Positions 5,076-50,061 of a DNA stretch of 64,000 bases are shown here, piece by piece. Each line of letters opens with the position of its first letter. Positions within the stretch are counted from its first letter, which is position 1. The notes beneath the pieces are model-generated. The model had not been told where the DNA came from. It ran no database searches and was given only the letters and a program-made list of their open reading frames with translations. The stretch comes from Clytia hemisphaerica. Taxonomy: Eukaryota; Cnidaria; Hydrozoa; Leptothecata; Clytiidae. The position numbers and the translations under genes are program-made. The stretch is from positions 1,957,152 to 2,021,151 of the forward strand of contig CACVBU010000385.1 of the NCBI GenBank assembly GCA_902728285.1, given 5' to 3'.

Positions 5076-5107
5076 TTTCAATTTGTTCTTCTTTTTCTCT
5101 GATTCCC

Positions 5108-17100: not shown

Positions 17101-20100
17101 TGATCTTCTCAATAAGCTTTGAAATGAACGCATTTTTATCTTCATAAAGTGTACTTGATTCAAAACAATATTCTTCATCTGGGTCAAGCTCTTGTGGGCT
17201 TGGAGTAGACATTTGTAATAGTTTCTTCATTGCCTTTGGATTGTTCAGATTTATTGCTTGTGATGGAACTTCATCTGGCTCACTTTCGTTTGTTGTTCCT
17301 TCTTCTTCTTTGAAAGTTTCATTATCATTTGAATCTACATCAGAACTGTTCTCCATTCTTTCCTCTTGAAGTGCTTTACTTTATTACTTTACTGTAAAGG
17401 TTGGCAGGATAATTTGTGAGAAGGACAGTTTTGACAAGCAAAATCTCTAAAAACACACATGTTAAAAAAAATCCCGCTGCAAAAGGCTACCATTTTGGTT
17501 TCCTTTGTTTTTGTTCCAAGCGGAACAAATTTGTGTCGAGCCACGGGTTTCCGAGGAAAATTTTCCAGAAAGGTCAAAGCGAGCGGAAAACTCGTAAACG
17601 CGGAAACTTTGACCCATAAAGGCAATCACTCTGTACAGGCACAATAATTTCAAATTTTTCTAATATTTTTTTATTTCTACACAGTATGCTGACAATTAAC
17701 TTTTTCAACAATTTCTCAGCACCCATTTTTACGAAAGCATCCATCGAAAACCTTTTTTTAAACATGTTTCCCAGCCTTCCTGGAAAATTTGATCTGTTGG
17801 CCAAAAGTTTCAAAAAACTTATTCCTAGAAATGAAGATCTGTTTCTCCTCAAAACCTAAATTTTTAATCTCAAAAGTAACTTCCCTAGAAAATTTGGTCT
17901 GTTTCCACAATTTTCAGAATTAAAATTTTGATCTGTTCTCCCAAGCTTATAAGGAATTGGACATCTGTTTCCCTCTCCTGGAAATTTTCATCTGTTTCGT
18001 TTGCTTTTTGTGATTGATATCTGTTTTCCCCCAGAAAATTCCATCTGTTTCCCAATTTATTATGTCATCTCCTAGAAATTTTGATCTGTTTCTCTCTGAT
18101 GACGTCATCAGCTGGAGCAGGGAAACAGATAGTTTTAAGGAAAAGGTCTTTCCTTTCCTAGAAAATCGGATCTCTTTCCCCATTTTTCAAAAAAAGCTCT
18201 CTCCTGGAAAAGAGAAGCAGATATTTCGGGGAAATGGTCTCGTTGGCTGCTTCTGCATTTATAATAATAGACAGTTAAACATGGAGAATTGAAAATTGAA
18301 GAAAAGAGATAGAGACACACTATAAAATATTTAAACAGCGCTGATTTCAAATCCACTGCTTAGATATTACAGCCCTGTAAGGTAGGGCTAAAACGGTCGA
18401 AAATGACCAAAAATAGCTAAAGTAAGAAAACACAACCCTCCTAGGCAAGATAAAGGTACGGGTATGTGCCGCCCTTATGGGTGCATTCTTGGAACCTGGA
18501 AGTCTCTGTAAGGATTGGAAGAATCAGAAAATTAAGTGTAGATTCCATTAACGGTCGAATAGTAGAAAATCTTTTTTTGCCAATTGAAAGATTTCCAAAA
18601 GAGGGTATGACATTCTTCTCCTTTTTAGTCCCGCTAAGGGTTTCCGATGGTCGAAAGTCGGGCGACACATACCCGTCATATCGCAACCCCTACTTCTTCT
18701 TTAGATAGCCTAGTAAACTGGATACAGATACTCGCACACATCTTATATAAATAAAAGGTGATGGACAAATACCCTCCAAGGTGCCCTTAAACGACATCAC
18801 ATTTTTTGCAATCCTGCGCTGAAAATACACAGCATAATATTCTCTGGACTCCATTAGTAACATAAACAAAGCCTGAAGTACACGGGGGTGAGGTCGAGAA
18901 AAAGTAATAAGACTATAAATTTATCATATAGACTTGTAGCCTCATCATATACTAATGGTTGAAAAGAAGGAGGGTGAACAATAATATCATTACGGCGGAC
19001 AAGCCCGGGGGGGGGGCACTCCAGGTAAGTGACCAACCGGACGTGCGGCCCTTAAGGGTAGGTTTTTTGGACAAAAAATTTCAAAAAATTGCACTATAAG
19101 GGTCCATTTTCAGCCACATTTTTCCTGCACTGTAAAGGTCCGATTTTAGAGACCTGAGTTTTGGCCGAACATACGGTCGTTTTCAAAATCGAGTGCCCCC
19201 CCCCCCCGGGCGGGCAAGGCTTGAACATGAGAAATCGGTAAAAATCAGTCAGTTGTCATTCCAGTCTCTATAATAATTCCATTGAAACACGTATAATTGA
19301 AACGAATCAGTCATTGCCTTGCGTCGTAAAAATTCAAAATTGTATTTCAAAGGTTTACCGGTCACGAATACTTCGCGACTAAAAAACAGTCTTCGTCTTA
19401 TGGGGATTTGCTTGAACCAGACTACCACGGCTTTTTCCTCGACACCGTGATTAAAAAATCGCGTGTAGGGATAGAGATAGAGTTAGGCTAATGGGGGTGC
19501 AATAATGAAAAAAGGAATTAAACCGGCATCAAACGTACATCTCGGTGAAACTTGTTATAATGTAGCATTTGATAATAGAGACTTATTTATTAGCCTTAAA
19601 TAAGCCACTCCATAATTAAATGCATGTTGTGTTTTTGTGGATTATCAAAAAACTTTTTACCCACAGAAATTTCTATTTTGTTTCTTGGTGAGTTTCACTT
19701 TTGACGATTTTTGAAGAAAAAAAGCCATCCAAAGTGTCCTGACGCAAATTCGATTTTTCCCTACTACAAGGGCTCCGAAAGTTTAAGTGACATAAAAAAT
19801 CGAATGTTTGGAGCCCGGAAACATGTAGTCTGAATCGCAGACCTCTACAAAACCCCAGGTAGTATCTATAAGGAGCACGAATCCGTTAGTGGATGTCAGC
19901 AGCCTAGGAAACATGGGCTCCAACTATTTGAAAAAGTGGATAATACTGCGTAGAAAAAAAAGTAATAACGTCTAGTATAGGCTAGTGGACAAACCTCAGG
20001 ACTTTTGGGAAGATCAAGAAGGAGATTGATGTCATCTTCTTCGGAGGACGTCGGGCGATCCAATCGCAACCTTTTCCTTTTAGTTTTGGATGATGACGAC

Positions 20101-23100
20101 GATGAGCCTTCGTCTAAACATGCATTGTTGTCCCACCATTTCTGTAAACTTGGATGGCGTCTCATGTCTAGAAAATATTATCATTGACACTTTCTTTTTA
20201 AAATGCCTGTTGCATAAGGCGCCACACGGGTATTAGGGTGGGAGGATACTGGGTGTGTGCGGGTTCGAACTTCCAAACCCTGACCTCAAAGTACACCAAG
20301 GGCGGAAAATGAGAATGTATATTTCTATACACTATTCGAAATGTATTGAATTATTGCGGGCCTCGTTTTTTATTTTGAAGTATCGTTCACAAGATGTTAC
20401 TGAAAGATTGGGCTTTTGTATCAGAATTGATGATGGTGAAAATGTATGAATGTGATTTGAAGAAACTTCTGTATTGGAAAACGAGGCTTGTATTGATTTT
20501 GATAGAGAAGAGGCCACTTTTCGATGACGATCGCATCTCACCCACGAAAGTCCAAGACTTGGTTCTAAGAGTGAGAATAATAAAAGCCTTTGTGTAGTCA
20601 TCAGAATGTGTCTTAGTCACTGAGGAAGATCATAAATCGCTTACCTCCTAACAAGGGTTTATTGAACAATTCTTTTGCGCCAGGTAACATAGTGCCAGCA
20701 CTTATCTAAAAATCAGGTTGGGCAAAAGGTTTAAGAAATATCACTTCATTTAAGAGTTCCTTGAAAAAAGTAACGCAATTTGAAAGAATAATAGAAAAAA
20801 AAATTAAATTCAAAGCCTTGCAAAAACCATATTCCCTATCAAATCGGAATAAACTATGCACTTAATTGTAACGAAACATAGATATCGATAAAAAATTCAA
20901 CATACTGGCACAGTAACTAAACTATCTGGATTTGCCAAATTATTTCGGATATCTTCTCCCGAAAGCGTTGTATTCTTATCGATTTGCAATTTGCGTTTCT
21001 TTTTAGGATGAGCTTTCGTTGGTTTCAATATGATAGCATCGGCTGGTGTGAAAAGTTGGTTTTCCCAGTCAACTGGCTCCTGAATTGATCCAAAACAAAA
21101 CAAAAGAGATAAAGATCCGCATCTGTAGTCTCACAAGTAATACAATCAATAACTACTTGATTAGAAGTCTTATTAGAAGTCTTAAGGGTGCTTATTGGAA
21201 GGTTAAGTATATTAAGATATAACTCCCGCGATGCATATTACGAAGTGTAATCGTCAGCCGTGCAAAATTACTCGAATCTGATTGGTTTAGAGGAGTGCGA
21301 TTAATCGTTAATTGCACTATTACCACTTTTTGCACTCTTCGGCGGGGGGACACTTTTGTCCCCTTATTCTTTTCTCTCCCAAGTCCTGTGTCAGAGATTT
21401 TTTTTTACTATATAATAAAAAACAAAGACATTTTTTTTCTTCAATATAAAAAAGAACAAAGAAATGTTACGTTACAATAGCTTCTTTTAATTGAAAACAA
21501 AGAAAAATTACACTGCAATGTTTTCTTTTTAAACAAAAGAAAAAAAGGAGGTTTTCGAATGTTTACAAAAAAAACTATGATTTACTAATGATTATTTACT
21601 GACGATTACCTCGGAATCGTATGTTTTGTCGTGCAATTAATGATAAATCACTCGTGACAAAGGAGAAAATACCGTAATTTGCACTCGTCCTTCGGACTCG
21701 TGCAAATTACTCTTTTCTCCTTTGTTACTCGTGATTAATCGTTAATTGCACTCCAAACCATACGATTACTAGTACTAATCCAGGTGATTTAGAGTATTTA
21801 AAAAGAACTTCTGACATTGGAACGATTTTAGGATTCTAAAATAAAGTCACAACGCTCGCTTTATCATCTGAACTTTGTATTTTAAAAGATGTTTGAAATC
21901 GGATTGAAATTAGACTTCAGAAAACTCACCCCAATAACTGTTTTTTGTTCGCCTCCTTCTCTTATGGCAGTGAAAGTAGTTTGTTCTTCTTCCAACACAC
22001 CAGCATCGAGACCTGTATCCATACCAAGTGCACCTATCTCCTCTACCAAATCCCCGTCTTCGACAGCAGGAAAAGAAATTTCTTCTATTGGTGTAAGTTT
22101 ACTTGGCTCTGATAATCCCATTCGCAGTTCATCTTCAGAGCTTTTGTTACCGAGTGTGGGAAAGTTGATGTTCTTGGCGTCTTGTAAGAGTTGATCGAGA
22201 TCGACTGGTTCGATTGCTTCTCGCGCTTGATCTCCTAGTTCGTCAATCATTATATCTACATGAGGTAAAATAGTAGTTATAAATTAATTTAAAACACATT
22301 TGTGGGAAAAGAACTATTTTTTTGTCAGTAAAAAAAAATTTGTGAACCATTTGATATCATGAAACATTTATCAAGCGTTATTAGTGTATTATGGCCAAAA
22401 TAATGTTAAAAATTGTGTGAAAGTTCAAGTTAATAGATTGATTTAAAAAATTAGTTTTCAGATAAAGCCTTCCAAAAGTAATGCTTACAGCATATAATTA
22501 TAAATCTCCTAAGCTTACCATCGATCAGCCTTCGCCTCTTCTTGGCCACTTCATCTTGATTGTATCTCGGTTTTTCAATGTCATTCAGTTCTTCCTCTTC
22601 AAACACTGGTGGTAACAGCTCATCCCTGATCAAAACACCAATAGAAACTGATAGATAACTTCCTTTTAAAATGTTCAGAATACAGACACTGGTCCTATTT
22701 AAATGATCGGTATGAATCTTAAAAGTTTTAAAAACTTAAGAAAAGGTAAAACTAAAAGTTTTATATAATTTAAAAATACGACCGAAAAATCAATATGACT
22801 GAGAGATTTTAATCGTTCTGCAAATTTGTAAGGGAGATGATGAAATAGCAAGGAAGGTAAAGTTGTTTTTCATACGGTAATCCTTCTAGATTTAGATCTT
22901 CAAGAAATCCGTCAGGAGCAGGCCCGAAAGTGTTGGTGCCAAAATCGTCTTCGCCAGGAACCTAAGTAGAAATCCAAGGTGAGAATTTTTATTACTTCAA
23001 AGAATAATCTGATACTAACACTTACGTTTAATAGCGAGTATATGTATTTGAAATTTTGAGGGCGGCGAGGTAACTGAAGGGAATTCGAATATAACCCGCC

Positions 23101-26100
23101 GTTTTGACCCGCAAAATTGAGGACGGTATTATAAGTACTTGTTTTACAATGCTGGACAAAAGGTTGTAGACAAATGAAATTTCAGTGAAAAATGGTGAGA
23201 AATAGAGCAAAATGACTCTTCAATGTGTCTGAAAGGGGATGGAAATTGAGAAAAATACTTTTGAAGTCGCTGCATTGCTTTTGAATTGCTTTTGAGGGAA
23301 CCACAAGCAAAGAATCAGCGCTTTGATACTGGTGTAAGCCAGTTAATCAAGCCCTTGTGGTTTACCCTTGCGGTTAGACTGCAGTGGGTGACTTTGAAAG
23401 ACTTTGGATGGGTTTGGAAAGCACCCAGAACTTGTTTTTGATCTATATTGAATTATTTTGCAAATATTGCAGAAGTCTACATACCTATTGTCCAGCATTG
23501 TAACAAGCGAGATTCTGACAAGTTAAATAGTTATGTCAAATACCTGAATTGGTCTGCTTGGAGACAATAAATCTTCAGTGATACTAATTTGTCGGTTACT
23601 AACGACCAGAGGACTTTGACTGGCTTTCTTGGGTGTGGTTGGTTCTTTCTTATTATTGATTTTGATAGGCGAGGCGAAGGGTGAATTATTACTACCATTG
23701 ACCAAAAACATGTCATCTTCATTCTACACATCAAAAGAAAGGAAAGATATATGTTTATAGTTACTTAGAAACACTTCAAAAGAAAAACTTTTATCCCATC
23801 TTCAAAGTTTGTTGGTCCAATGTAAAAGTTTGTTCTGTCCTGAAACTTTAATCTTCTTGAATCTTAACCATTCTTTCTTTCTATAATGACAATTATTTTT
23901 CATTCAAGTTTCAAGCCTTGATATTTGAGGGTACAAAAATGTATTTCAGAAGAAAAAGTGGGAGATCTTCTCCACTTTTTATACAGCGGTTATAAAAGTT
24001 AAGAAAGCCATTATTTAAGTGCATGGCGAATCACACGGATAACAATGCCAGTTGGAGATTGGCGAAAGTGAAAAAAAAGACGGACAGAATTCCTATTTAC
24101 AGAAAGAGTTAGATTGTGAGGACTGTTTCAAACAGATGACTGTTAAAATTCTTTACCGTTTGGAAAGGGAAAATATTATACTTCGAGCAGCAGCTATTTT
24201 TAAAGATATACTTTATAAGTACTTCACACAGTCATTCAACTAATAAAAACCATCATTTAAAGAAAAGAAGTCTGTTTATTTGGATTTTAAATTTGAATTT
24301 AGACACCATAGAACAGCAGTTAGAAAGATCAATAGAAACAGTCATCGGACGACTGTGTGTTTTGTATAGAAAAACCTTTCCGAAATGATGAGAAGCTAAT
24401 TTTCTAGAACTTGTAATTAAAAGGAAAAACGAAGAAACGATTCAAACAATGCTATCATCATGATATCAGTAATCAGCCTCTTTTAGAAAATGAGAAAATT
24501 AATGCACCTCTGCGAAAGAAAATTAGACCGCGTAAAAAAAACAAACGAAGAACCTAGTACTTTTTCATTTCAATCCAAACCCTTGAATTAAGCTAGTCGT
24601 CAAAGTGTAAAACGAGGATGAGGTCGACGGTTCTTTTTGTTCTTTTCATCGGACTAAATGGTAAGTTACCTTTTAAAACCCGTCCCGTTCTTTACGAAAA
24701 AAACCACATTATAATATGCAAAGATAATGAGAATTACAACTGGTCAGTCGGTCATGCGCACAGAGAGTGGTTCTTGACCCGTTATTTTTTCCTTTTTATA
24801 CTGAGCAGTTATTTAGAAACCTTTACTAAAGCATAAAGAAACCGGTTAGATAAATAAAGATTGTTTGTTCTAAAGTTGGTATTAGTTGGTAATTCGCGAT
24901 AAACGAGCTTTGAGCCTATAACAAATTACCCGGAGCTTTTACTGCAAAAAGTTTCCTTAGCGAGTGCTTTAAAAACCTTTCATTTTTCAACTTTTTAGGA
25001 GAAATCATTCACCTATCACCGAATGGAAAGGATAAACAGAATTGCGGAAGCTCATCAGAAAAATGTAAAACTATAGATCATGCTCTCGATCAAAGAGAGC
25101 ATGACAATATTACCTTGGTTTTCGAAACATCGCTGACTGAAAGCTTCAAGTATAGTTTGACAGGACCGTTTCAATTTAGAAATACAAGCGCCGTATCTTT
25201 GAAATTTATCAAAGATGGGAAACAGGGAAGAAATCCAATATTGCGCGGAAATGGCAGAGTTTTCATAGCAGAAGGTAAAGTAAGCACGAAAGAGGTTGAA
25301 ATTCAAATCGATTCTATTAATTTAGACCAAGTCTATCTTATCAATGTAACAGACAGTAAGGCAAAAATAACAATCGTTATCCAAAATGCGTCTATTCTTG
25401 TAAATCAAACAAGATTTATTTTTTTGTTGAATCATAAAGGGGGAGTTTTTATCTCCCTCTGGAAAAAGTCTTCTCAAATCACAACACCACTTGGAAGAGA
25501 GGCCAAGATATTACAATAAGAAATATTGGAACTATCTACATATCAACGACTTCTCTTTGTTGAGCATTGACTGCGCTGAAAACACAATGTTGCAAAGCCG
25601 TGTTGGTATCTTTGAAACGAAGATTGAAGGTGGACGAATTAGGATAAAGAATGTGCAGACTTTTCGTATGGAGCAATGCACCATCGGGAAAAACTTTCCA
25701 CAATTTTCGAAAGACTTTTACTTTGAAGTGAATCAACAGTTTTCTCCTAATAGCTTGTTCAGGACTCCAATCTTTGAGCCAATCAACCTCAATGTATTTG
25801 CCAAACATTCCCAAGGAAAATGTCTTAGATCAGAATTTGATATTGTAGTTGTACCACATCAATCATCAGTTATATATCTTGAAAATGTGAACGATAACAG
25901 TATCACCAACTGTACTATAACACAAGCTATATTGAGTCAATTTATGACGATTTACAAATCGACTGGTCGGGTTGCAAACATCGATTTAACATCTAGCTTC
26001 CTTAGCAGAATACTTTTCATTCGACTGAGTAACCTACGTATTACCAATATGAAAATTGACAACATTATTACCAAATATTCAACGAAATCATGGACTATGG

Positions 26101-29100
26101 ATGAACACTTCAAATTGACACTATCGGAGGTATTTATCGACAACTTACAAATCACAAATTCAAACATGTCACGAAGCAGGTTCTTTCATTTATCGCGTCT
26201 ATCAAAACTTGTGTTAAATAATTTCTCTATCAATGATACTGAATTCAAAGGAACAATGTTTAAAACGTGGGCTCATGCCGTACTGACTTTATCTGACATT
26301 CAAATGCACAACATCAAATTTCTAGGTCGTTTCTTTTATACATTTACGACCACTATTAGCGTGAAAAATATGAAGATCGTAAATTCCAGTTTTGGATTAA
26401 CAGAAAGACCCCCATCATCTATTTTCTGGCTCATTCAGACAAGAGCAACATTCAATAAAGTTCGATTTGAAAAAACAAACACCGACGCAACGGCTCTTTT
26501 CAGTTCGAAACTCTATTGTCATGTAGTAATGAGAAATATTGATATCATCCATACTCATGTCCCAGAAACCAACATATTCGTAGATTTTCGAGGAAAATTA
26601 CAAGTAGTGAGTTTACGATTGGAAAACAGTACCTTGCAGTGTGCTTTCAATATGACGAATAATAACGCAGAGATTGCTGATGTTTCCGTACTCAATACAA
26701 CACTAAGAGAACAATTTCTAATGTCTGGGGAAAAAGCTATTGTCGGAAACTTAACCATAAAAGATTCTGTGCTTTCTGGATTGGTGACAGTTGTAGGCAA
26801 CGAAAAAACTTTAGCAGAGCTAACAGGTACCAATTTTCGAATAGAAAATAGCTTCCTTATAAATCATGGTTTCTTGATAAAAGATGGCGCAACAAACATA
26901 CAAAATTTGAGCATGACGAATGCTAAAATTGGAAATCTCTTCGATGCGACCAAAAGTGTCATAAAGCTCGAAAAAGCATTCCTCAATGGAACAGATATTG
27001 TGAATGTGATGTTTTTGAGTAAGGCTCAACAAAATGTTTTCATTTTTACAGGAGTATGTCAGGTTGCCATCAAGAAATTTGAAATGGTGAGAAGTAGAGC
27101 AGACGGGAACATATTTTTTGTTGACAATTCCGTTCTGATTCTTGAAGATACGCAGTTTAAAAATAATTCATATGCTACCGGATTTAAAGTGTTGTATTCT
27201 AAGATCAATTTGTCAGATTTTCAATCCGTCGGTAACAGAGTCTTTGGACAAATAAAATTTATAAATGCAAAGGCAACCTCGACCTTGCATCTCAAGAACA
27301 TATTAGTGAAGTTATATGAACTATTGGAGTTTGAGAAAGCGATGGACATTATTGATACAGAATTGTATATGGATAATTTCCATACCAAAGTGGAAACGTC
27401 GCTTTCTTTAAAATTCGACATAATGAATTGGGAATTCCAAAATCAAATGTCAAGTAACTTGACAAATTTGACCATTCAGTGTCCAAAAAATTTCAATGTC
27501 ATGCTGAATAAGCAGACGAGAATTAAAAAATCGTTGTCCCTTTCTTGCGAAAGATGTGAAGAAAAAACTTATCCAGTCATTTCAGCTGAAAGAGAATTCA
27601 TAACATCAAAGATTGACGAATCGAAAGATTTTATTCTGGAAAACTTACAAAATACTATCTTAAAATGTCAAAATTGCCCCACAGGAAGATCGTGTAAGAA
27701 TGGTGCAATAAAAGCTCGTGACAACTTCTATGGTTTTATGAATACGAAGAACGAATATGAATTTATACTCTGCCCTGGTGACTATTGCTGCAATAAAGAT
27801 AGCTCCACTTGTATATCACCAACAACTTGCAATTTCAAAAGAACCGGACCTTTATGCGGACAATGTGAGAAGGGTTATTTTGTAAACTTCAACAAAAGAT
27901 GTGTTCATGACTCAAAATGCTCTCCGCACAAGAAATACATATTTTGGACTTTCTTTCTATCTGTTCCAATCACCCTGGCATTTATATTGACATTCGCAAA
28001 CGACATTAAATATTTTTTCATAAGACTGATGATTCGCATCAATTGCAGAATATGTCATCGGCAGAAAAGGAAAATCAAAAGAAGAGTAGCTGGGAAACTA
28101 AAATGTTCTGATGACAAAAAGATATCCGTACCAGCCACTTTCAATATCATCATGACATTTTATCAGCTGAAAGCCCTTATTAAAGTCAAAAACTTTGGTA
28201 ATAGTGAAAACCTTTTTGTTGACCAAATTTTCAACATAGAATGGATAGCAAAAGGTAGAACAGAGTTTGAAAATGTATGCCCTGTCAATGGAGCAACCAT
28301 TATAATGCAAGAGTTTTTGATGGGACTCATGAATCCTCTAGTGATGGCTCTGACAGTGCTGGGTTCTCTTGCAGTTTGCAAAAGCCTATACTCACTGAAA
28401 TTTTCAAACAAAGACAAAAATTTATTTACTGGAAGGTTTTACGTAGGTTATTACATCATTTTGGCTTTCTCTTACAAAAACATTTGTCATACGGCATTTA
28501 CTTTTATTAACTGCAAGACAATGAATAACAAGCAATTTCTATACATCGAAGGAAGTATTGAATGTTATCAACCTTGGCAGATCGCAAATATTGTATTTTT
28601 GATACTATGGGTTTTCCCGTTCCCTCTATCTGTAGGCCTTGGTTATGGAAAGCTCAAAAATGGAGAGATTTCACGTTTGAAATTCTTGATTTACTTGACA
28701 TTCCCATTTATAGGTATTCTGATGATTATTTGTAAAAAAATCTCCAAAACAGAGACTCAAAAGGCATACCAAAAAGCTGATGGCCGATTAGTTGAAATAT
28801 TCGAATTGCCATACAAGGAGAAATATTTTTGGTGGGAAGCTTGGCGCTTAATGGAACGTTTTATTGTCGCAGGCCTGTCTGTCTTCTTGACGAACCCAAT
28901 ATATCGCATATTATATATCACCTCAGCATTTGCATTATTTTCGTATCTTCACCGGAGAGTGAACCCTTACAAGCGAACAATGTTTCTACTGAAACGATTG
29001 GATGCGGTCAGTTGGATTTGTTTGTTGTTGATCTCTTTGTTAAACGAAATGAGAGCGGTGGCATATATCTATAACGTTCCCAATGTGGACAGCATAAACC

Positions 29101-32100
29101 ATGCTTTTAAAGCTGCTAATATTTTAGAGAAAGTTTTTTCTCCATTGTGGTACTTCATAATTTCATTTATTGTTAAAAAATGTTTAGATTAATTTTTTGA
29201 CTTTGAAGCCTGTTACCGTATTACTTCGAATAAACGCCCCCTACTTTTAAACGCCCCCTTAGAATGAGCGCCCCATCTAGGGGAGGGGCGTTTATTAGAA
29301 ACTTGTGACTTTAATACTTAAGTACCACTATTGATTGGGTTTGAATAGGAAGATTTTAGTCATTTCTTGTAACCAGAGCCGTTTTCGATGCAATTCTAGT
29401 CGTTGAGCCAAAGAAATTTTGCACTAAAATCATGACAAAGAACTAATCCAAAGGGTATATTTGCTCTAAATATTCTACTTGAGACTAAAACAATTTAATG
29501 TAATCCCCGCTACTAGCTCGAGCGAGGGAAGGATTATTTCGGATTTTCCGGGGTTTTTTCAGCCTCATTAAGAAAGTTCTTACATAGAATTGGACAATAG
29601 GTAGATATATTTTGAAAAATCTAGTTTTCATTTCGTCATAATAATTTCTATATAAAAAAATAAAAGTGAAACAATGCGTCATTATGTTGTACTGAGTGTT
29701 ACATTCTGCAAAATTTCCACGTTGTATTTTGAAAGAGCTAAGCGTAAAGACATCTCTAACGGATACTTTGCAATTTTGACGAATGCAGTGCGCAATAAGG
29801 GATATGAAGCTAATAAATTTATGCCATTAGTTTTCACATGGAGGCGTGAAACGCAAGTTTTTTAAATGCAGAATTTATAGAAGAGTAGTTTTATTTTTCT
29901 TTTAAAATTATAATTGGGGACGATTTTTGATTTATTCTTCGAGTGGTTAACAACAGGGTGTGTATTTTTGTGATAAATTTATTTCAATAGAAAAGATTAG
30001 TACGTACGTACACTGCCATTGTTATACTTTTATTTCTTGAATAACCTAATTTTAAATTGTTTTTCTTTAAAAAATCAACAGGGGTGAAATTTTCAATTAC
30101 GATTTTCACACCCAAATCCCCTTACAGATGTTCTTCTGTTTTCCCAATTAATAAAAACCAATTATAAAAAAATCTTCCAACTGCGCTTTTCGAAAATATA
30201 TCCAACAGAGAAAAAAGTTATTATTTTCATAACATTTTCCCAAAAACGATATTGTGATAAAAGTGGGATGAGAAATAATTGAATATCGAATTGTTGGTCA
30301 ATATAATGAAAAACAAATAAACTTTGGAATAAAATATATTAAAATAGATCGATCGTTTTCACCTGAATTTTTTAACCGATTCAGTCGAAACTGGAAAAGA
30401 TGACTTGGAACAGTACAGGGCTTTTGTTTATCTTTGCTTTTTTCATTGAAATAAATGGTAAGTTTCGTTCCTTTTTATTCTTTGATTGCCTCGTTGGAAT
30501 TTTCTAATTTAAATTTCTTTTTTTGTCCAATATGTTTATTCGTTCCAGAAACAAAGTTATGGCAAAAAGAATTACCACGACAGATCATACTTGTAGAATA
30601 GTAAAGGAGTATTAATCATCCATAGTATTAACTTCCTTGTATAATGGCTTGCGTTTTTACTTTTTAAGGAGAAATCATTCACCTGTCACCGACTGGAAAG
30701 GATCAACAGAATTGCGGAAGCTCATCAGAAAAATGTAAAACTATTGATCATGTTCTCAATCAAAGAGAGCATGACAATATTACCTTGGTTTTCGAAACAT
30801 CGCTGACTGAAAGCTTCAAGTACAGTTTGACAGGACCGTTTCAATTTAGAAATACAAGCGCTGTTGTATCTTTGAAATTTATTAAAGATGATCATCATGG
30901 CAGGAATCCAATAGTGTTTGGAAATGGTAAAGCATTTATTGGAGTGGATGAAGGAAGCACAAAAGCGATTGAGATTCAAATCGATTCTGTTAATCTAGAC
31001 AACATCTACCTCGTCTCGGTGACTGCCGGCAGTATAAATATGAGAATTATTATTCAAAATGCTTCGATTTACACCTATCGGACGAAATTTATTCTTTTGA
31101 AAACCCAGGGTGACGTTTTCATCGATATCAGAAAGAGTCTTCTCAAATCACAACACTACTTGGAAGAAAAGCCAAAGTATCACAATAAGAAATATTGGAA
31201 CTATCTACATATCAACGACTTCTCTTTGTTGAGCATTGACGGTACTGAAAACACAATGTCGCAAGGCCGTGTTGGTATCTTTGAATCGAAGATTGAAGGT
31301 GGACGAATTTGGATAAAAAATATATCGATTGTTCGTATAGAGAGTTGCTTGATCGAAAAAAACTTTCCGAAAATTTCCAAGGACTATTATTTTAAAGTGG
31401 ACAAAGTATTCTATTCCTCAGAACGCAATTCAAGAAAGACAATTTTGGAACCGATTAACCTCAATAAGCTTGCCAACATTTACGCTGGAGACAGTCTTAG
31501 CTCAGCTTATGATATTATCATCATTCCTTCTGAAAGCTCTTTGATATATCTTGATCGTGTCCGAGACTACAGCATCAATAACTGCAAAATAACACACGCT
31601 TTATTTAAAATGCTTCTGTTCGCTTACAAGTCCACCGGCAAGATTGTTGACATTCAATTGACATCGAGTTTTCTTGTTAGAGTAATGTTGATCCAAGATA
31701 GTCAACTAAACATCACAAATATCAAAATCGATGACGTCATTATCCAGAAAGCCATAATAAGTGACGACTACTTCAAATTCATACAGTCTGAGGTGCGTAT
31801 TGATAACTTACAAATCACAAATTCGAAGATGTCCACAAAACATAATGCCCTGTTCAAGATAAGCTCGCCTTCAAAAAAACTTGTAATCAATAAACTGAGC
31901 ATCAACGATACTGAATTTCGAGAAATGTTTGTGGCACATAAATCAACCACTTTGACTTTATCTGACATCCAGATGCACAGGGTTAGCTGCTTTGATATTT
32001 TTGTTTATTCATTTACCAACACTGTAAGTGTGAAACATCTAAAAATCGTCAACTCAACCTGGGTATCATCAAGTTCAGACAAAACATCTATCTTTTGGTT

Positions 32101-35100
32101 CGCTGAAGCAAGAGTGATATTTGAGGAAGTACAATTTATTAATGTCAATACCAATGCTGAAGCTGTCATCGAATCGAGAGCAGGTTTACTATTGGAAATT
32201 AAAAACATTTCAATCATCGATACCCATGCGCCAGAAACTATCATACTTTTAAATTCTAAAGGAAAGGTGGTAATCAATGGTGTGCGAATTAAAGATAGTA
32301 TCTTAGATTACGCCTTTCATACGTCTGGTTCTGTAGATATTTTTGATGTCTACACTTTCAATATGACATTGAGGCAAACATTTCTAGTTTCGAATGACGA
32401 CCAAACAATTATCAGCAGATTATTGATTCAAAACTCACTAATTGGTAACTTTGTACAGCTCGAAGGGAACGAAAAGAGGGTGGCAAAGCTAGTTGTTACA
32501 AATTTACGAGTAGAAAATACATCTATAATTAATCATTGCTTCGAGATCAAATTTGGTAATGCTATTATTCAAAATTTGAGTATGGCAAATGATAAAATTG
32601 GGAATCTCGTCGATGCAAGTAAAAGTGTACTAAAACTTGAAAAAACAACTCTTGATGAAACCAAGGTTATGAATGTGATGTTTCTCGGTCAAGCTAGTCC
32701 TAATGTTTTCACTTTCACAGGGACATGCCAGGTTACCATCACAAAATTTCAAATGGTGAGAAGTACGGCAGACGGTAACATATTTCTTGTTGACAATTCC
32801 GTTCTGACTCTTGAAGATACGCAGTTGGAAAATAATTCATATGCTACCGGATTTAAAGTGTTGTATTCTAAGATCAATTTGTCAGGTTTTCAATCAGTCG
32901 GTAACAGAGTCTTTGGACAAATAAAATTTATAAATGCAAAGGCAACCTCGATCTTGCATCTCAAGAACATATCAGTGAAGTTATATGAACTATTGGAGTT
33001 TGAAAGAGCGATGGACATAATCGATACAGAATTGTATATGGATAATTTTCATACCGAAGTTGAAACGTCGCTTTCTTTAAAATTCGACATAATGAATTGG
33101 GAATTCCAAAATCAAATGTCAAGTAACTTGACAAATTTGACCATCCAGTGTCCAAAAAACTTCAATGTTATGCTGAATAAGCAGACGAGAACTAAAAAAT
33201 CGTTGTCACTTTCTTGCAAAAGATGTGAAGAAAAAACTTATCCAGTTATTTCAGCCGGAAGAGAATTCAACATAACAACAAAGATTGATAAATCAAAAAA
33301 TGTTATACTGGAAAACCTACAAAATACTATATTGCAATGTCAAAATTGCCCGACAGGAGCATCCTGTGAACATGGTGCAATCAAAGCTCGTGACAACTTC
33401 TATGGTTTTATGAATAAGAAGAACGAATATGAATTTATACTCTGCCCTGGCGACTATTGCTGCAATAAAGATAGCTCCACTTGTATTTCACCAACAACTT
33501 GCAATTTCAAAAGAACTGGACCTTTATGCGGACAATGTGAGAAGGGTTATTTTGTAAACTTCAACAAAAGATGTGTTCGTGACTCAAAATGCTCTCCGCA
33601 CAAGAAATACATATTTTGGACTTTCTTTCTCTCTGTCCCAATCAGCCTTGCATTGATATTGACCTTCGCAAACGATGTCAAATATCTCTTGATCAAGCTG
33701 GTTGTTTGCATCAAATGTAAATTATGCTGCCGTCGGAAAGACGAGGCTGAAAGAGAAGTAGCGAAGAAGAAAGATTCTACGTACGACAAGGAGATATCTG
33801 CGTCAGCCACTTTCAATATCATCATGACATTTTATCAGCTGAAAGCTCTTATCATCGTCAAAAATTTTGGCAATAATGAAAACATTTTTGTTGACCAAAT
33901 TTTCAACATAGAATGGATAGCAAAAGGCAGAACAGAGTTTGAAAATGTATGCCCTGTCAATGGAGTGACCATTATAATGCAAGAGTTTTTAATGGGACTC
34001 ATGAATCCTCTAGTGATGGCTCTGACAGTGCTGGGTTCTCTTGCAGTTTGCAAAAGCCTATACTCACTGAAATTTTCAAACAAAGACAAAAATCTATTTA
34101 CTGGAAGGTTTTACGTAGGTTATTACATCATTTTGGCTTTCTCTTACAAAAACATTTGCCACACTGCATTTACTTTTATTAACTGCAAGACAATGAATAA
34201 CAAGCAATTTCTATACATCGAAGGGAGTATTGAATGTTATCAACCTTGGCAGATTACAAATATTATATTTTTGATATTATGGGTTTTCCCGTTCCCTCTA
34301 TCTGTAGGCCTTGGTTATGGAAAGCTCAAAAATGGAGAGATTTCACGTTTGAAATTCTTGATTTACTTGACGTTCCCATTTATAGGTATTCTGATGATTA
34401 TTTGTAAAAAAATCTCCAAAACAGAGACTCAAAAAGCATACCAAAAAGCTGATGGTCGATTAGTTGAAATATTCGAATTGCCGTACAAGGAGAAATATTT
34501 TTGGTGGGAAGCTTGGCGTTTAATGGAACGTTTTATTGTCGCAGGCCTGTCTGTCTTCTTGACGAACCCAATATATCGCATATTATATATCACTTCAGCA
34601 TTTGCATTATTTTCGTATCTTCACCGGAGAGTGAACCCTTACAAGCGAACAATGTTTCTGCTGAAACGACTGGATGCTGTCAGTTGGATTTGCTTGTTAT
34701 TAATCTCTTTGTTGAACGAAATGAGAGCGGTGGCATATATCTATAACATTCCCAATGTGGACAGCATAAACCATGCTTTGAAAGCTGCTAATATTCTAGA
34801 GAAAGTTTTTTCTCCAATGTGGTACTTCATTATTTTTTTCATATTAAGGAAGTTTTCCCGATGAATTTGAGTTAATATCCTGGGTGGTGGTTTATACCAA
34901 AGGACCTAAGGACAAGGTTTGGACACCACAATCAATTAATTAGGTTTAGAATTAACTCTCTTTAATTCGAGGTTGAACGGGAAGTCTCATTCGTTTAAAT
35001 TATAGAAAAATTCGAAAAATAGAAGTTTGAATTAGTGCGAGTCTACTTACTATGAAGTTATATAGGTTTTTTGCCGACTTTTCTTACCAATATTATTGTA

Positions 35101-38100
35101 TGGGCCAGAGGCTGCTTTCACCTTGGAGACATGTGAATTATTTTCAAAATTTTAAAGGTTTTAAAAATCGAGGAGCTATAAAACATTCCAATGTAATAAA
35201 GTATGATTAGTTTTTTATAATGAACTTTATTTAAATGGCATTTTTTGTTTTTTTGCTCATTTAAATGAATTTTAATTGTTTTTTAATCATGTTCAATACT
35301 ATGGAAGCAATAGATGTGTTCATGGCCCTGAGAGTGTTACTTAGTTTAATTACAAATAATAATGTTAACTGTAAAGCCTCGAACTTTGGACAAAAAAATG
35401 TTTGGAAGACAAAGTCTGTCGCAATATTTCTTTTTCGTTTTCTATCTTCATTTCCTTTTTTTTTTTTCTATTTGATAATATTCCTCTCTGGAATATCTTT
35501 TCAACAGGCACAATAATTCGAATTCTATCAAAAGATTACAGCCTCTTTTGTCTCTGCTAGAATCAGAAATCAAAGACACAAGAGAAAGTTTTTCATACCA
35601 TGTGCATGATCATTTGGGGGTCATAATAAACTGGTTCCAAGGAGTAGTCGATGATACTGATGCAACCGTCCACCATAGTGATAGCTTCTGATCTGCATAA
35701 GGTGAAAGAAATGATTATTGCTCCACTTACTGTGGGCGTACAATCTTTTGTGAGACCAAAAATTCGAAAAATTTACAAAGTTTCACAAATTCAAGGGGAA
35801 AGCGAATCAAATAAAAATGAATTTTTTTAGTATTTATGCCTTAATTAACCTAGTCACTGACGAGTCACTATCAATCGTTTTCTCTTGGGTAATAGTCCAA
35901 CCTTATTTGAAGAATCATTTCCAAAACGCTACTCTTAAAATTGGATAAAAGATTTCATATTGTTATTATTAAAAGGAATTTCTTCACTTTTCTAGACAAA
36001 TAATGATTGTCAATTGTGAGCAAAGGATTCAAAAAAGTCGAACGTGCGCAACGCACTGGGCTTTTTCATCCCCATTGGGATTTTGATAAAAGATTTTACC
36101 CCCGCTTTGGGAAGAAAATTCACTCGAGCTGTAAAAGACAGGGGTGTCTTCAATGGCTTCCAATTCTTTAATGCCCAGTGGTAGCAAAACAAACAAAAAA
36201 CTAGTGCCCAGGCCCTTAAATTCAAAATTTTTGAAAAATGAAAAAACAGCCCAAGATATTCACCAGAGGAACCAATGTGTTAAATTTCAGCCAAATCTGA
36301 CCAGGGGGGGGGTCGGTAGTAAAATCTCAGACATATATGAGTAGTAAAAGGATTTTTACGAATTTTTACATACCACCACCCAGACTCTTGGAAGAGGTAT
36401 TTTACTACCCTGGTAGTAAAAGCTTTTGGGACAATTTGTCATGGAGACCACCTATTTTTTGGTTGCTTTTCGAGCTGATTTTGCAAAAAAAGCTAAAAAA
36501 TGATTATTTCTGTGACACATTTTTCACGTAGTGCAAAAATTAATGGGTTTCCCTTAGAATTAAAGTCTTTTTATATTATATTGACAAAAAATTTCGAGAA
36601 CTTTTTGTTTGCAGCAAACAACTTTCCAACAGAAAATTTTTTCAAATTATAAAAATGTTCAGATTTTTTCAGAAAAGTCATCCAGAAAATTAAAAGAATT
36701 ACAAAAAATAGCTAAAATTTGCTAATTTTACCAGTTTTAACTACCCAGGTAGTAAAATTTTTTCAACATTTAACACATAGATACCACCCATTTTAGTATT
36801 TAACTACCCTGGGTAGTAAAATTTTTTTTCGATTTTTCGTCACACCACCACCGTAGTAAACGTCATTATGTCTGAGATTTTACTACCGACCCCCCCCTGA
36901 TCTGACTTTTTTTAATCCTCTAAGCTGCACTAAAGTTTTTGCGACAGACAGACAGACAGACACACGTTGCCAGATTCTAGCTCAACTGAAGTTGATAATA
37001 AAATGTTCAAACCTTGCCAACCCAATAACATTTGGTTCAGAATTTCTCAGAGTAGCCTCCTTCAACATTGAGCTTAGTTTCAACATCATCGACTCTGCCA
37101 ATTCTACAAAAATCATTAAAAAATGGAAGTTAAATTTATATTTGTTATTCAATTTTGGTTCCTTGACTGAGCTTTGTCTAGGTATAGTAAAAAGATCTCT
37201 TGTATAGCCGCCAAAGGAGCTTCAATTTGACGAGTTTGACTAAAGAATTGACATTTAGAAACATTAAATGTAGAACGTTCTTTTGTGTTTTGAACTTTTT
37301 TCCTTCTGATTGATACTTACGTAGAATCATTCGAGTTTTGGTGCGATAGACTCTGACAGTTCCAAGTAGAAGTTGAGCAGACAGACGCAATGCATGTGGA
37401 TACTTTGGATTGGTGATCGCAGAACTATGTAAACGACAAATAAAAATATTTCAAAAGAGGCAATGAAACAGAAATTTTGGTTGATATTTTATACCTGAAA
37501 ACTAGGTGACAATCTTTTTTGAAAATATTACATCTTTTATTACTCGTTTCTTTTCATATGATATAATATCACAACAAATTTCCAACATATTATTTGGAAA
37601 TACAATAAGGTGGGACTGCTTCGAGACTCTACTATGGCTAAATCCTTAAACCCCTTTTCTCTTAAAAATTGGATTATATTTTCTTAACTTAACAAAAAAA
37701 ACTAAAAAAACCCTGGAAAACCCTGTTCATACCAAATTTGTACAATATTGGCCCCCTCACAATCACGAGATGATATGATTTTTTTGTACTTTTCTGGATC
37801 ATAGTTAGATGCAAGCCTATAAAGAAATGGTAAAATTTTATAGGATTAGAACAATATTAGAATCAACTTAATTTTGCAGAAAATTGAGAGTTTCATCACA
37901 TGTTTCTTCTCTTAAAACCTTCACGTCTATGTGCAGTCGTTTTCATACTCTGACAAAAATTACCTTTATGATTACACGTGTCATCAACAAGTTCTTAAAA
38001 TTTCTAACCCTTTCTAATCTTTTCATTTTCTGATAAACATACCATTCAGGCCTTTCCACGAATGAAATGAAACGTGATCGATGAATTGATCATGTAAATG

Positions 38101-39093: not shown

Positions 39094-41001
39094 GGGCCAA
39101 ATTGAAAAGTCGTCAACCAAAACACAAAATCAAAAATCTTACAAACAAAATAAGTAACTGTGATTTTTTATTTACATAACCCTTAAATTTTCCAATTTCA
39201 ACTTTTAAATCAACCGAGTCGCACTTTTAGACTTTGTAAGCAGGTGATTTTATCGAGACACAACTAGTGAGGTTTGTCACGGAAGGACAAGTGTTAAAAT
39301 ATAATGGACCTTCTTTTGAATAATAAAATGATTAATCAAAAATGAAATGTTGTTTTAAAACAAGTACATACCCTAGTTAGTTTAATAGGTTTATTCATTT
39401 TGAAATAAGTCGAACAACAAAAAAGTACTGCAAGCAGAAACTTTTTTTCAAATATCGAATTCCTTCCGTGACAATTTCAAGACAAAAAGTTTTTTCACCA
39501 GTTTTGTGCAAGTCCACTATTCTTGATATTATTGCAAGTTCTAACTATTGGTACCCCCTAACAAAAAATGAAATTACATTCCAAAGCAACCTCCTTCATA
39601 TTCACTTACAAGGTCTGAAATTATTGTCCTTCCGTGACACTTTCACCTTGTCCTTCCGTGACGGATTAAAAATATCTTGTTATTTTTAGAAATCTTGGAC
39701 TTCAATGGGTCTAATTTATTGCAGGAGAGTGTCCTACAAGGTTCAGAACCATTGGGAACCAGCTCAACCCTGTATGGAGCTCAGAATAAGCTTAACTAAG
39801 GCTCCAGTACAGCGCTGTAAGCTTATAGTGTAGGCCCAGGCGGCTCTGGAGGCCTAAAAATCTGTTTTCTGGCAAAACTACTGTTCCCAGCGGGTTCTAA
39901 ACGCTCAAAATCGCTTCAGCACCATGGAAATATGCTAATTAGAGCCTTTGGAAGTTAGCTCACTTGCTTTCAAGGTTGCGTTTTTACGTTTTTTGCTTAA
40001 AAAAGCCTTAAAAACGCTTAAATAGAGCTTTTTAAGCGTTTTTAAGCTATTTTAGTGAAAATTTGTCGGTTCTGCCCCCTTCGCTGGACTTCAATGGGTC
40101 TAGTCCATTGCAGGGGAGTGTCCTTCAAGGTTTATGACCATTGGGAACCAGCTCAGCCCTGTATGGAGCTCAGAATAAGCTTAAAACTAAGGCTCCAGTA
40201 CAGCGCTGTAAGCTTACAGCGTAAAGCCCAGGCGGCTCTTGAGGCCTAAAAACCGGTTTTCTGGCAAAACTACTGTTCCTAGCTGGTTCTAAATCCTCTA
40301 AATCGCTTCAGCACCATGGAAATATGCTAATTAGAGCCTTTGGAAGTAGCTCACTGGCTTGCAAGGTCGCGTTTTTACGTTTTTTTGCTTAAAAAATATA
40401 ATCTTTCCTGTAAAATTTCCTAATTATTATCACCATTATAATTGAACAATAAGAATACAGTTCCAAGGTTTTGAAATGAGCTGAATAGTAAAAATGGCTA
40501 TGATTCATGATATGATGTGTCACTTCACTAGTTTCAGTCAACATTTCTTACGCTATTGCTGATTTTGAAAAATAGGAATTTTTTCCTTCCGTGACAGTGT
40601 CCTTCCGTGACACTGACCTTTCTCAGTTGCAAAGGCCTGTAGCCATTGAAATTAATTTTTTTTACTCAGTTCTTTTTTCAATGACAAGCAGATAGACATA
40701 AGTTTCTTCTGGTGGTATTTTGGTTTTAAAATTCTCTTTAAATTCACAGGAATCTGAATCAGCATACTTTTGTCTTTTTTAATGTCTTCGCTGCGTTCCT
40801 TCCGTGACAGAACCTTCAAAGTTCAATTATTCAACGAGGAAAAACTTTTATGAAATTTATTTTGCTTTGGAAGTAGTAGTACTATGAAGGCTTTAATTCA
40901 GGACTAATACTATTTTCATTCATTTTACCATTTTTCAAAAAAAGACCAAAAAAGGCTCTGATTTCCTTCCGTGACAGGAACGGGACTTTTCAATTTGGCC
41001 C
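39094..41001. mobile_element. 1.9-kb DNA transposon with 18-bp TIRs and multiple CCTTCCGTGAC subterminal repeats
   Basis: GGGCCAAATTGAAAAGTC at 39094-39111 is exactly inverted at 40984-41001, and TAGA flanks both ends (4-bp target duplication). CCTTCCGTGAC occurs about eight times inside (near 39277 inverted, 39463, 39630, 39649, 40591, 40608, 40798, 40968), as expected of transposase-binding sites. The centre holds a 389-bp tandem duplication. No transposase ORF is visible, so the element is non-autonomous. Confidence 0.72.
39696..40392. repeat. 389-bp tandem duplication with a hairpin spacer
   Basis: Two diverged copies start TGGACTTCAATGGGTCTA at 39696 and 40085 and run to TTTTTACGTTTTTTGCTT. 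Both contain CTCCAGTACAGCGCTGTAAG and GCACCATGGAAATATGCTAA. The spacer has a 13-bp-arm hairpin (TAAAAACGCTTAA and inverse, about 40010-40044). Confidence 0.8.
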
Positions 41002-41284: not shown

Positions 41285-41921
41285 CCGACAGCCCTGCCTA
41301 ATTCCGACACCCCAGATATCTTTATGTTTACAAACATTCCTTCTCCAAGTTGAACGATAAACTACCGTAAGTTGGTCTAATTTTGACATCCGTCTTCTAA
41401 TTTCGACATCCTTCTTTATAGATAGGAATAATAAGAAGGTCGAAATCACTGATAGACTAAAGATTTTTCCTCTAATCGCGCTAATCAAAGTCAATCAGCG
41501 ATTCAGAACTTCCCCAGTTTCTATTGTTCCTATCTTCTAAAGAAGGGTGTCGAAATTAGAAGACGGATGTCGACATTAGACCAACTTACGGTATGCAAGT
41601 ACTCTTGAAACAAAACATCTAACAAGATGGCTATAATGTCAAGATGTCATTTAATGTGATCAAAAAAGTGTGAGTTGTAAAAATAATTACCTCTATTATT
41701 CTGAATCTGTTGCTCGTGTTTAAAACGTTAACAATTTATGTAATAAAAAATTATGTTTTGCATAAGAAGCACAATTATTGTAATTTGGTTCAAATCAATG
41801 TGTATCAAATCTCTCAGTTTAGTTGACACTTTGTTATCTTCATTGCGTCACAGCAAAAGGTTTTTTTTTATTTTAGTTTGTATCTTTGAAAGACCCCATT
41901 GGATTTAGGCAGGGCTGTCGG
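41285..41921. repeat. Outer inverted repeat enclosing the palindromic MITE
   Basis: CCGACAGCCCTGCCT at 41285-41299 is exactly inverted at 41907-41921. The MITE at 41365-41591 lies inside, suggesting one element inserted into another. Confidence 0.45.
41365..41591. mobile_element. Palindromic MITE, TA target site, copy 2
   Basis: 227 bp, ends CCGTAAGTTGGTCTAAT in inverted orientation, TA at 41363-41364 and 41592-41593. Same family as 15906-16152, including internal motifs CTTCTAATTTCGACA and its reverse. Confidence 0.78.
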
Positions 41922-49372: not shown

Positions 49373-50061
49373 GTTTCAAAAGAAGGACATAGTGATATTC
49401 TAGAATAGAAGTTATTGTTATATAGCCCGTTTTAAAGGTAAAAAATCTGTACTTTAGGATGTGATTGCGTTCGTTACAATAGAATTTGTACTGATTCAAA
49501 TGAATATGAGTAAAGTTTGCAAATACGTGATGTTTCTGGCGAACATACCCATATCATAAATTCACGGCTACAAAACTTTTAGTAAATTGTCAAACTCCAA
49601 CTCGATTCCAGTTTTGACTTCAGTACCAACCACGTAACAAGTTTAAGGATGAAATTTTCGTAGGTTTATCGTATCGATCGTATATCTGTCTTGTATTTCT
49701 TTTTTTAATGCGTACTCAGTAAGATAATATTTTAAGTTACTGACTTCAGATCAGTTCTATGTTTGTGATCGTTCTTCCATGGAGCTTTTCATCTTGTTCG
49801 ATAGCTCCAGTTAGATTTGCTTTCTTGATCATTCAAAAATATCTGAATAAATATCAATATACCTACAGCATTTATATTAGCGATAAACTCCATTGTCGTC
49901 TATTTTTTTAAGGTGTTCAATATATTTTTTTTTAGCATAGATTCTTGTCGTCCCAGTTATGAAAAACTTGACCGGATCAAAACGACTGCTGAGTATAATG
50001 ATCTTCAAAATATAATTTTTTTATAATTGTTTCTTTCTAAAGTGAAAAACTTTACAAGAAA

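Follow-up and report, generated by a model that had tools for sequence, protein, structure and literature searches.

Two tandem genes of Clytia hemisphaerica combining a predicted beta-helix ectodomain with a polytopic membrane domain, and the mosaic divergence between them

Gene models and features of the locus

Two adjacent plus-strand genes were borne out at 24618–34864 of the window (the whole stretch analysed, 64,000 nt), each with the plan given in a preliminary description, a small exon for the signal peptide followed by a single 4.2-kb exon; the intron between them is of the GT-AG type. Gene 2 (30400–34864, +) is intact, its 58-base signal exon and 4.2-kb exon together encoding 1417 residues. 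Gene 1 (24618–29192, +) has the same plan, but not in intact form: its frame breaks where two ORFs (24914–25519 and 25431–29192) overlap, and splicing leaves a length not divisible by three. This frameshift, overlooked in the preliminary description, marks either a pseudogene or an assembly error. These were the only copies found by tblastn in the window, and Rfam and tRNA scans of the whole window gave no matches. The features are as follows:

24618..24660, +: gene 1 exon 1, signal peptide MRSTVLFVLFIGLN, then a phase-1 intron (ATG and GTAAGT donor at 24661, by direct reading)
24999..29192, +: gene 1 exon 2, frame break within 25431–25519 (overlapping ORFs; net frame change relative to gene 2)
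25698..27059, +: gene 1 divergent central beta-helix tract, corresponding to gene 2 residues 253–706 (coordinates checked by flanking peptides)
27480..27920, +: gene 1 Cys-rich stalk, RTGPLCGQC at 27840–27866
27939..29189, +: gene 1 polytopic membrane domain
29229..29234, +: AATAAA signal 3' of gene 1
30400..30457, +: gene 2 exon 1, signal peptide MTWNSTGLLFIFAFFIEIN (donor at 30458)
30669..34864, +: gene 2 exon 2, intact; with exon 1, a 1417-aa protein
31367..32728, +: gene 2 residues 253–706, beta-helix tract diverged between the copies (silent codons identical 117/211; aa identity 0.48)
32729..33607, +: gene 2 residues 707–999, last helix coils and Cys-rich stalk, copies similar (silent codons identical 233/258)
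33149..33592, +: gene 2 Cys-rich stalk, Cys 847–994, RTGPLCGQC at 33512–33538 (weak DUF7630 match)
33608..33796, +: gene 2 residues 1000–1062, TM1 and basic Cys-rich first loop, copies more divergent (silent codons identical 24/36; aa identity 0.59; block defined post hoc)
33797..34861, +: gene 2 residues 1063–1417, remaining membrane segments, copies similar (silent codons identical 288/320; aa identity 0.95)
35195..35200, +: AATAAA or ATTAAA signal 3' of gene 2

Ectodomain, stalk and membrane domain

The ectodomain had been described as beta-helix-like, and we found that its middle part is likely, although not proven, to be a parallel beta-solenoid. A repeated coil of about 22–25 residues with a hydrophobic core, as in parallel beta-helices, was detected both for gene 2 by itself and for the two copies averaged, each with a hydrophobic period of 24 residues whose score was reached by 0 of 1000 shuffles. 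In gene 1 alone this period was weak (0.063 at 24, with period 26 scoring highest); over aligned sites it reached 0.117 at period 24 and was highest there. An AF2 model of the head, built on a 3-row alignment, had a mean pLDDT of only 50 and was confident in the mid-ectodomain only, where 23 of 27 ten-residue blocks (gene 2 residues 390–659) were at pLDDT 73–89 with regular strands. Foldseek gave no significant match at E ≤ 0.001 among 59 from PDB (best 0.12) or 71 from viral models (best 0.0025). By name, the PDB rows were mostly beta-helix proteins (autotransporter passengers, the TMEM2 ectodomain and tailspikes), none of them significant. Across residues 340–706, sites hydrophobic in either copy were identical or still hydrophobic at 111 of 140 strand positions and 17 of 41 loop positions. 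Of the 18 N-glycosylation sequons of gene 2, 17 fall within residues 56–887 and the other lies in the signal peptide; none follows residue 887. Its residues 20–716 had no Pfam match at E up to 10, and hence none to a lyase, Beta_helix or G8 model.

The Cys-rich RTGPLCGQC module is present in both genes, as previously noted. In gene 2 this stretch resembles Pfam DUF7630 (PF24633) weakly (E = 0.0056, 17.2 bits), but the match falls short of the 27 bits set as curated threshold and concerns a 45-residue domain only; gene 1 had no match to DUF7630 at E up to 1. The C-terminus is polytopic. Of the eight to ten helices proposed for it, simple scales support eight or nine in gene 2: an insertion scale gives nine segments, and hydropathy gives ten raw peaks that reduce to eight because two pairs overlap. 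At most about 5 residues follow the last segment. Structure prediction for the membrane domain (2-row alignment) gave a mean pLDDT of 33.5. Its core, residues 1095–1400, is 98–99% identical between the copies, with dN/dS of 0.03–0.07 in three blocks.

Nothing significant was found when the membrane part was searched against Pfam (E up to 10), NCBIfam and PDB sequences: there was no transporter or channel match in Pfam or NCBIfam and none of weight in PDB, where sequence searches gave matches at E 0.35 or worse, or none, although HMMER may miss very remote homology. In Pfam, no 7tm or Frizzled family matched at E up to 10, and there was no match to GPS or GAIN, the adhesion GPCR feature expected before TM1, or to cadherin repeats. 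As a control, class C receptor exons in the same window matched 7tm_3 and ANF_receptor. The proposal of a design outside the standard GPCR classes stands insofar as no named GPCR or transporter family in Pfam, NCBIfam or PDB gave a match of weight, with the membrane fold itself modelled at low confidence. Neither a non-solenoid fold nor a known transporter or channel match, the outcomes named beforehand as contrary to the proposal, appeared, the membrane side having been judged by sequence search only. PHROGs matches at E 0.047–0.068 were taken for chance.

Relatives were sought in viral and prokaryotic sequences only, so that their absence means little. Six octapeptide patterns found 1 stretch in viral contigs, which is not a relative, and motif searches of the viral contigs gave 1, 14 and 5 loci, all 20 of which were screened without a profile match at E up to 10. 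The best tblastn match among these 20 loci (E 0.40) was the seed motif itself of locus L001, which was taken for chance because the strand opposite to it carries an ORF of similar length. Two heptapeptide patterns scanned against one prokaryote genome gave 73 stretches and no relative. Sponges, cnidarians, lancelets and molluscs presumably have predicted proteins, as yet unnamed, that join an RTG-LCG-C stalk to a polytopic domain, in which case the family would be widespread, though uncharacterised. None of the papers among the entries listed by literature searches describes this protein, which does not show it to be unpublished; the words pectin, beta-helix and lyase are absent from PMC12716839, and pectin from PMC4302439.

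Mosaic divergence between the two copies

The two copies form a sharp mosaic, a new observation that had been overlooked in the preliminary description. Where both copies encode the same residue, the central beta-helix (residues 253–706) has silent differences at 94 of 211 codons, compared with 66 of 707 across the stalk, the membrane core and two blocks near the N-terminus; identical silent codons number 641/707 in all similar tracts and 140/256 in divergent tracts. Likewise, dS is 0.94–2.37 in five blocks of residues 240–700 and 0.12–0.28 in six blocks of residues 700–1000 and 1095–1400. A window-variance test supported the mosaic (0 of 5000 permutations), and the longest run of identical silent codons was borderline (472 of 10000). 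Breakpoints are few and sharp (residues 91, 176, 253 and 707). Since dN is less than dS in all 16 blocks, no positive selection is demonstrated.

Alignment outside exon 2 is confined to short stretches, with the intron, upstream region and 3' flanks hardly aligning, and the duplication therefore looks old. As judged from sequence comparison, the mosaic implies that such old duplicates have undergone gene conversion or recombination with each other in certain regions. Raised GC3 was used as a sign of biased conversion in a study of fugu protocadherins (PMC1852091). Here, GC3 rises slightly in gene 1 (310/808 in similar tracts and 172/530 elsewhere, p 0.03) and does not rise in gene 2 (305/808 and 197/530, p 0.86). 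The little or no rise, together with the few, sharp breakpoints, would also fit exchange with an unseen third paralogue, in one or a few recombination events, rather than repeated conversion of the pair, a cause compatible with any function of the proteins. We regard this as somewhat unlikely; the hardly aligning flanks and intron count against it, as they argue against a recent full-length duplication that included the flanks.

Possible function and comparison with known systems

It is the mosaic divergence that hints most strongly at a role in recognition. Our best explanation, held tentatively and at a little short of an even chance, is a recognition receptor with a variable beta-helix head on a constant stalk and membrane base, each copy having its own specificity. 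Each gene, gene 1 in unbroken form, would encode a receptor some 1400 residues long at the cell surface. Once the signal peptide is removed, a long, probably N-glycosylated right-handed beta-helix, as the fold evidence suggests, would project outward from a Cys-rich stalk and an eight- or nine-segment membrane domain with a very short tail. Its exposed surface and loops may bind a ligand, e.g. a glycan, a matrix protein or a receptor of another cell, and the stalk may relay binding to the membrane domain, which would pass on the signal. Regional conversion or recombination between the tandem copies may keep stalk and membrane domain alike and the central helix different, so that divergent helices on one base could provide different specificities. 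Against this explanation count the broken gene 1, the presence of only two copies, dN below dS throughout, the slight or absent rise in GC3, the borderline run of identical silent codons, the lack of a significant Foldseek match, the weak period in gene 1 alone and the low mean pLDDT of the head. A larger claim, that the locus belongs to a multigene recognition system with the logic of clustered protocadherins or allorecognition genes, in which conversion keeps an undescribed polytopic module as base while beta-helix heads diversify, seems to us quite improbable.

Having eight or nine predicted segments, not seven, and strong constraint on its core, the membrane domain might instead conduct or carry a solute, with the ectodomain as a beta-helix cap sensing force, matrix or ligand. 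We consider such a channel or transporter unlikely, given the family searches above, limited though their reach may be for very remote homology. An adhesion or matrix-binding surface protein, its membrane part mainly an anchor, would account for the large head, the sequons and the very short tail; but eight or nine segments at the identity seen in the core exceed the needs of an anchor, even if conversion may explain that identity, and we judge this rather unlikely. The TMEM2 ectodomain (8c6i) was the third Foldseek PDB row (E = 0.95) and several other rows were lyases or hydrolases, which would fit a membrane-tethered, TMEM2-like beta-helix enzyme acting on extracellular polysaccharide. Such an enzyme is highly unlikely, since the Pfam search of gene 2 residues 20–716 was empty and TMEM2, like fibrocystin, has a single membrane segment.

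If the recognition receptor is correct, a fold familiar chiefly from phage tailspikes, bacterial adhesins and polysaccharide lyases serves, in an animal lineage, to vary a multi-pass receptor of the cell surface, and gene conversion has spread a common membrane base among the copies. The genes would then be testable candidates for recognition of self, symbionts or microbes, with a membrane domain matching no family in the Pfam copy searched.

Among animal proteins, TMEM2 (CEMIP2) and fibrocystin (PKHD1) also have parallel beta-helix parts, TMEM2 being a weak Foldseek match, but unlike them the Clytia protein has no G8 or related Pfam match. Large-ectodomain GPCRs (adhesion, class C, Frizzled and amoebal) share the arrangement of extracellular head, Cys-rich stalk and polytopic membrane part, whereas no 7tm, GPS, GAIN or Frizzled match was found here and simple scales give eight or nine segments rather than seven. 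PbH1 and Ephrin_rec_like are among the domain labels in an amoebal GPCR survey (PMC10445921), and choanoflagellate glutamate-type receptors with Ephrin receptor-like domains are reported in another study (PMC12716839). From the clustered protocadherins of vertebrates the present genes differ in having i) a beta-helix, not cadherin repeats, ii) eight or nine membrane segments rather than one, iii) no identified 3' constant exons, iv) two copies, and v) little or no GC3 rise. They resemble them in being tandem genes with a large exon for ectodomain and membrane segments and, as far as one gene pair with presumed specificity allows, in a regionally homogenised membrane-proximal part beside a divergent putative specificity part, such homogenisation being described for protocadherins in PMC1852091 and PMC4978886.

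Gene models and protein anatomy

GT-AG introns and genes in pieces across the window give this DNA a eukaryotic character. Each member of the tandem receptor-like pair, gene 1 and gene 2, consists of a short exon and a very long one:

Exons of the tandem pair
24618–24660, +, gene 1 exon 1
24999–29192, +, gene 1 exon 2
30400–30457, +, gene 2 exon 1
30669–34864, +, gene 2 exon 2

The reading frame of gene 2 is unbroken end to end and encodes 1417 residues, by which positions are numbered below. The gene 1 frame is broken: its joined exons leave a remainder of one, and it is covered by two ORFs overlapping at 25431–25519, a stretch in which homopolymers are abundant. A sequencing error may account for the break; alternatively, gene 1 may be a pseudogene of recent origin. 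Downstream of the break no stop interrupts the frame over 1253 codons, but a dead copy could owe such an intact appearance to conversion from gene 2. A tblastn search with gene 2 (E up to 10) found no third copy in the whole window.

The gene 2 protein opens with a signal peptide, after which comes an N-terminal motif with CGSSSEKCKTIDH. A long ectodomain (the head), in which I, S, L and N are abundant, leads to a Cys-rich stalk (Cys 847 to Cys 994); this is followed by hydrophobic segments starting, on an approximate insertion scale, at about residues 1003, 1062, 1130, 1165, 1213, 1250, 1321, 1354 and 1398. A hydropathy plot after residue 960 gave ten peaks, two pairs of them overlapping, and missed the segment at 1165. 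There are 18 N-glycosylation sequons, 1 in the signal peptide and 17 in residues 56–887, with none later. This layout of sequons and segments is consistent with an extracellular head on a base in the membrane.

Fold, family searches and neighbouring features

The hydrophobic pattern of gene 2 residues 20–850 has a period of 24 residues (autocorrelation 0.219 versus 0.163 for the best of 1000 shuffles). With both copies averaged over aligned sites 176–850, the value was 0.17, reached in 0 of 1000 permutations; the period is weaker in gene 1 alone (0.063 in one analysis and 0.117 in another over aligned sites). An AlphaFold2 model of the head, based on a 3-row alignment, had a mean pLDDT of 50 and a pTM of 0.54. 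Regular strands were predicted in model residues 371–640 (gene 2 residues 390–659), where 23 of 27 ten-residue blocks had a pLDDT of 73–89, and the first 320 and last 185 residues were mostly below 50. With E up to 10 allowed, Foldseek returned 59 matches in the PDB; a viral structure library gave 71. No match in either set reached E ≤ 0.001. Judged by name, the best 50 of the 59 included 4 leucine-rich-repeat proteins, 2 other solenoids and 44 that were beta-helix or unclear; the top match was the haemoglobin protease passenger (E 0.12) and the third the TMEM2 ectodomain (E 0.95). The best viral match was a phage protein with a right-handed beta-helix (E 0.0025). A beta-helix, as the preliminary description proposed for the ectodomain, is the likely but not proven fold class of the modelled head: the period and the strands over most of residues 390–659 speak for it, whereas the structure matches fall short of the threshold.

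The membrane part had no match in Pfam (E up to 10) or NCBIfam, and only chance-level matches in PHROG and, searched alone, among PDB sequences (E 1.3 and 1.4; none with a two-row profile). Structure prediction of this part gave no usable model (mean pLDDT 33.5). The same kind of search did match class C receptor exons elsewhere in the window to 7tm_3 and ANF_receptor, showing that ordinary receptors are detectable. The gene 2 stalk had a DUF7630 match below threshold (E 0.0056; 17.2 bits, cut-off 27), and the gene 1 stalk had none at E up to 1.

Other features of the window were as follows:

2177–2611, −, MFS transporter exon (MFS_1, E 1.5e-12); the same gene may extend into adjoining ORFs as far as 5138, of which 4677–5138 has no MFS match
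14554–17380, −, matches in two ORFs to the BESS motif (E 8e-7) and to parts of the MADF DNA-binding domain (E 0.0015 and 2e-6)
15899–16155 and 41362–41598, related elements of ~250 bases, each partly self-complementary and possibly MITE-like; 21615–21767 is likewise self-complementary
19899–23723, −, acidic exons, which we take to be reminiscent of cohesin RAD21; six ORFs gave no convincing Pfam match, and one ORF searched against PDB gave none
39696–40004 and 40085–40396, direct repeat of ~310 bases, 91% identical
43413–43614 and 45036–45348, short tandem repeats in opposite orientation, ~84–94% alike, readable as SVPLPSHL repeats
50041–56864, +, class C (GABA-B-like) receptor exons, with ANF_receptor in 50853–51197 (E 8e-8), four ORFs matching 7tm_3 (E 5e-10 to 7e-4) and a weak PDB match of the first exon to GABA-B subunit 1 (E 0.47)
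55244–55519 and 55646–55921, +, two ORFs matching overlapping parts of 7tm_3 (profile 74–128 and 93–149); one may be a spurious or duplicated exon
58633–58752 and 60397–60518, repeat of ~120 bases, 93% alike, the former copy within an ORF having a weak UCH_1 match (E 0.015)

Mosaic divergence between the copies

Genes 1 and 2 share 74% of residues over 1401 aligned codon pairs, and their silent divergence is uneven along the length:

dS per block (NG86), by gene 2 residues
1–100: 0.22
100–172: 1.17
172–240: 0.17
240–700: 0.94–2.37
700–1000: 0.14–0.28
1000–1060: 0.89
1060–1095: 0.46
1095–1400: 0.12–0.16

Segmentation of silent codons placed breakpoints at residues 91, 176, 253 and 707 (each in at most 2 of 200 permutations), with 65/72, 23/45, 55/57, 117/211 and 545/614 identical in the successive segments. 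None of 5000 permutations equalled the observed window-variance statistic, and 472 of 10000 equalled the longest identical run, a borderline result. Similar and divergent tracts, picked after segmentation and excluding residues 1000–1062, had 641/707 and 140/256 identical silent codons (Fisher p = 1e-32). Residues 1000–1062 (TM1 and the first loop) look divergent as well from their silent sites (24/36 identical versus 521/578 in the remainder of 707–1417, p = 0.0002), in a post hoc contrast on a stretch that segmentation alone did not pick.

Outside exon 2, the copies align over 32 bases at the end of exon 1 (84%, E 1e-5), a 30-base upstream stretch (E 0.007) and ~20 bases ahead of the exon 2 acceptor, the other pieces being at chance level. 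This near absence of alignment, together with the mosaic of dS, appears best explained by old duplicates in which tracts were later homogenised. A rise in GC3, taken as a mark of biased conversion, is small in gene 1 (310/808 in similar versus 172/530 in divergent tracts, p = 0.03), and gene 2 shows none (305/808 versus 197/530, p = 0.86).

The divergent tract and a possible role in recognition

The tract left divergent is the region through which a receptor would recognise its ligand. Among strand sites of residues 340–706 with a hydrophobic residue in at least one copy, 111 of 140 have kept the residue or its hydrophobicity (68 identical), versus 17 of 41 such loop sites, and polar sites are identical at 58/95 strand and 43/87 loop positions; thus the core chemistry is preserved and the loops are altered more. 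Since dN is below dS in 16 of 16 blocks, this comparison gives no evidence of diversifying selection.

No description of this protein was found among the open-licence papers listed. Large-headed surface receptors under regional conversion are a kind already known, and the combination of a beta-helix head with this membrane domain is a variant nameless in the libraries searched. We infer that the predicted receptor signals. Clustered protocadherins have large tandem exons in which conversion homogenises the membrane-proximal domains and spares the specificity domains (PMC1852091, PMC4978886). The layout of genes 1 and 2 appears alike, with the membrane-proximal part homogenised and the putative specificity region divergent, and on this analogy, with the divergent tract as putative recognition surface, we favour a recognition receptor.
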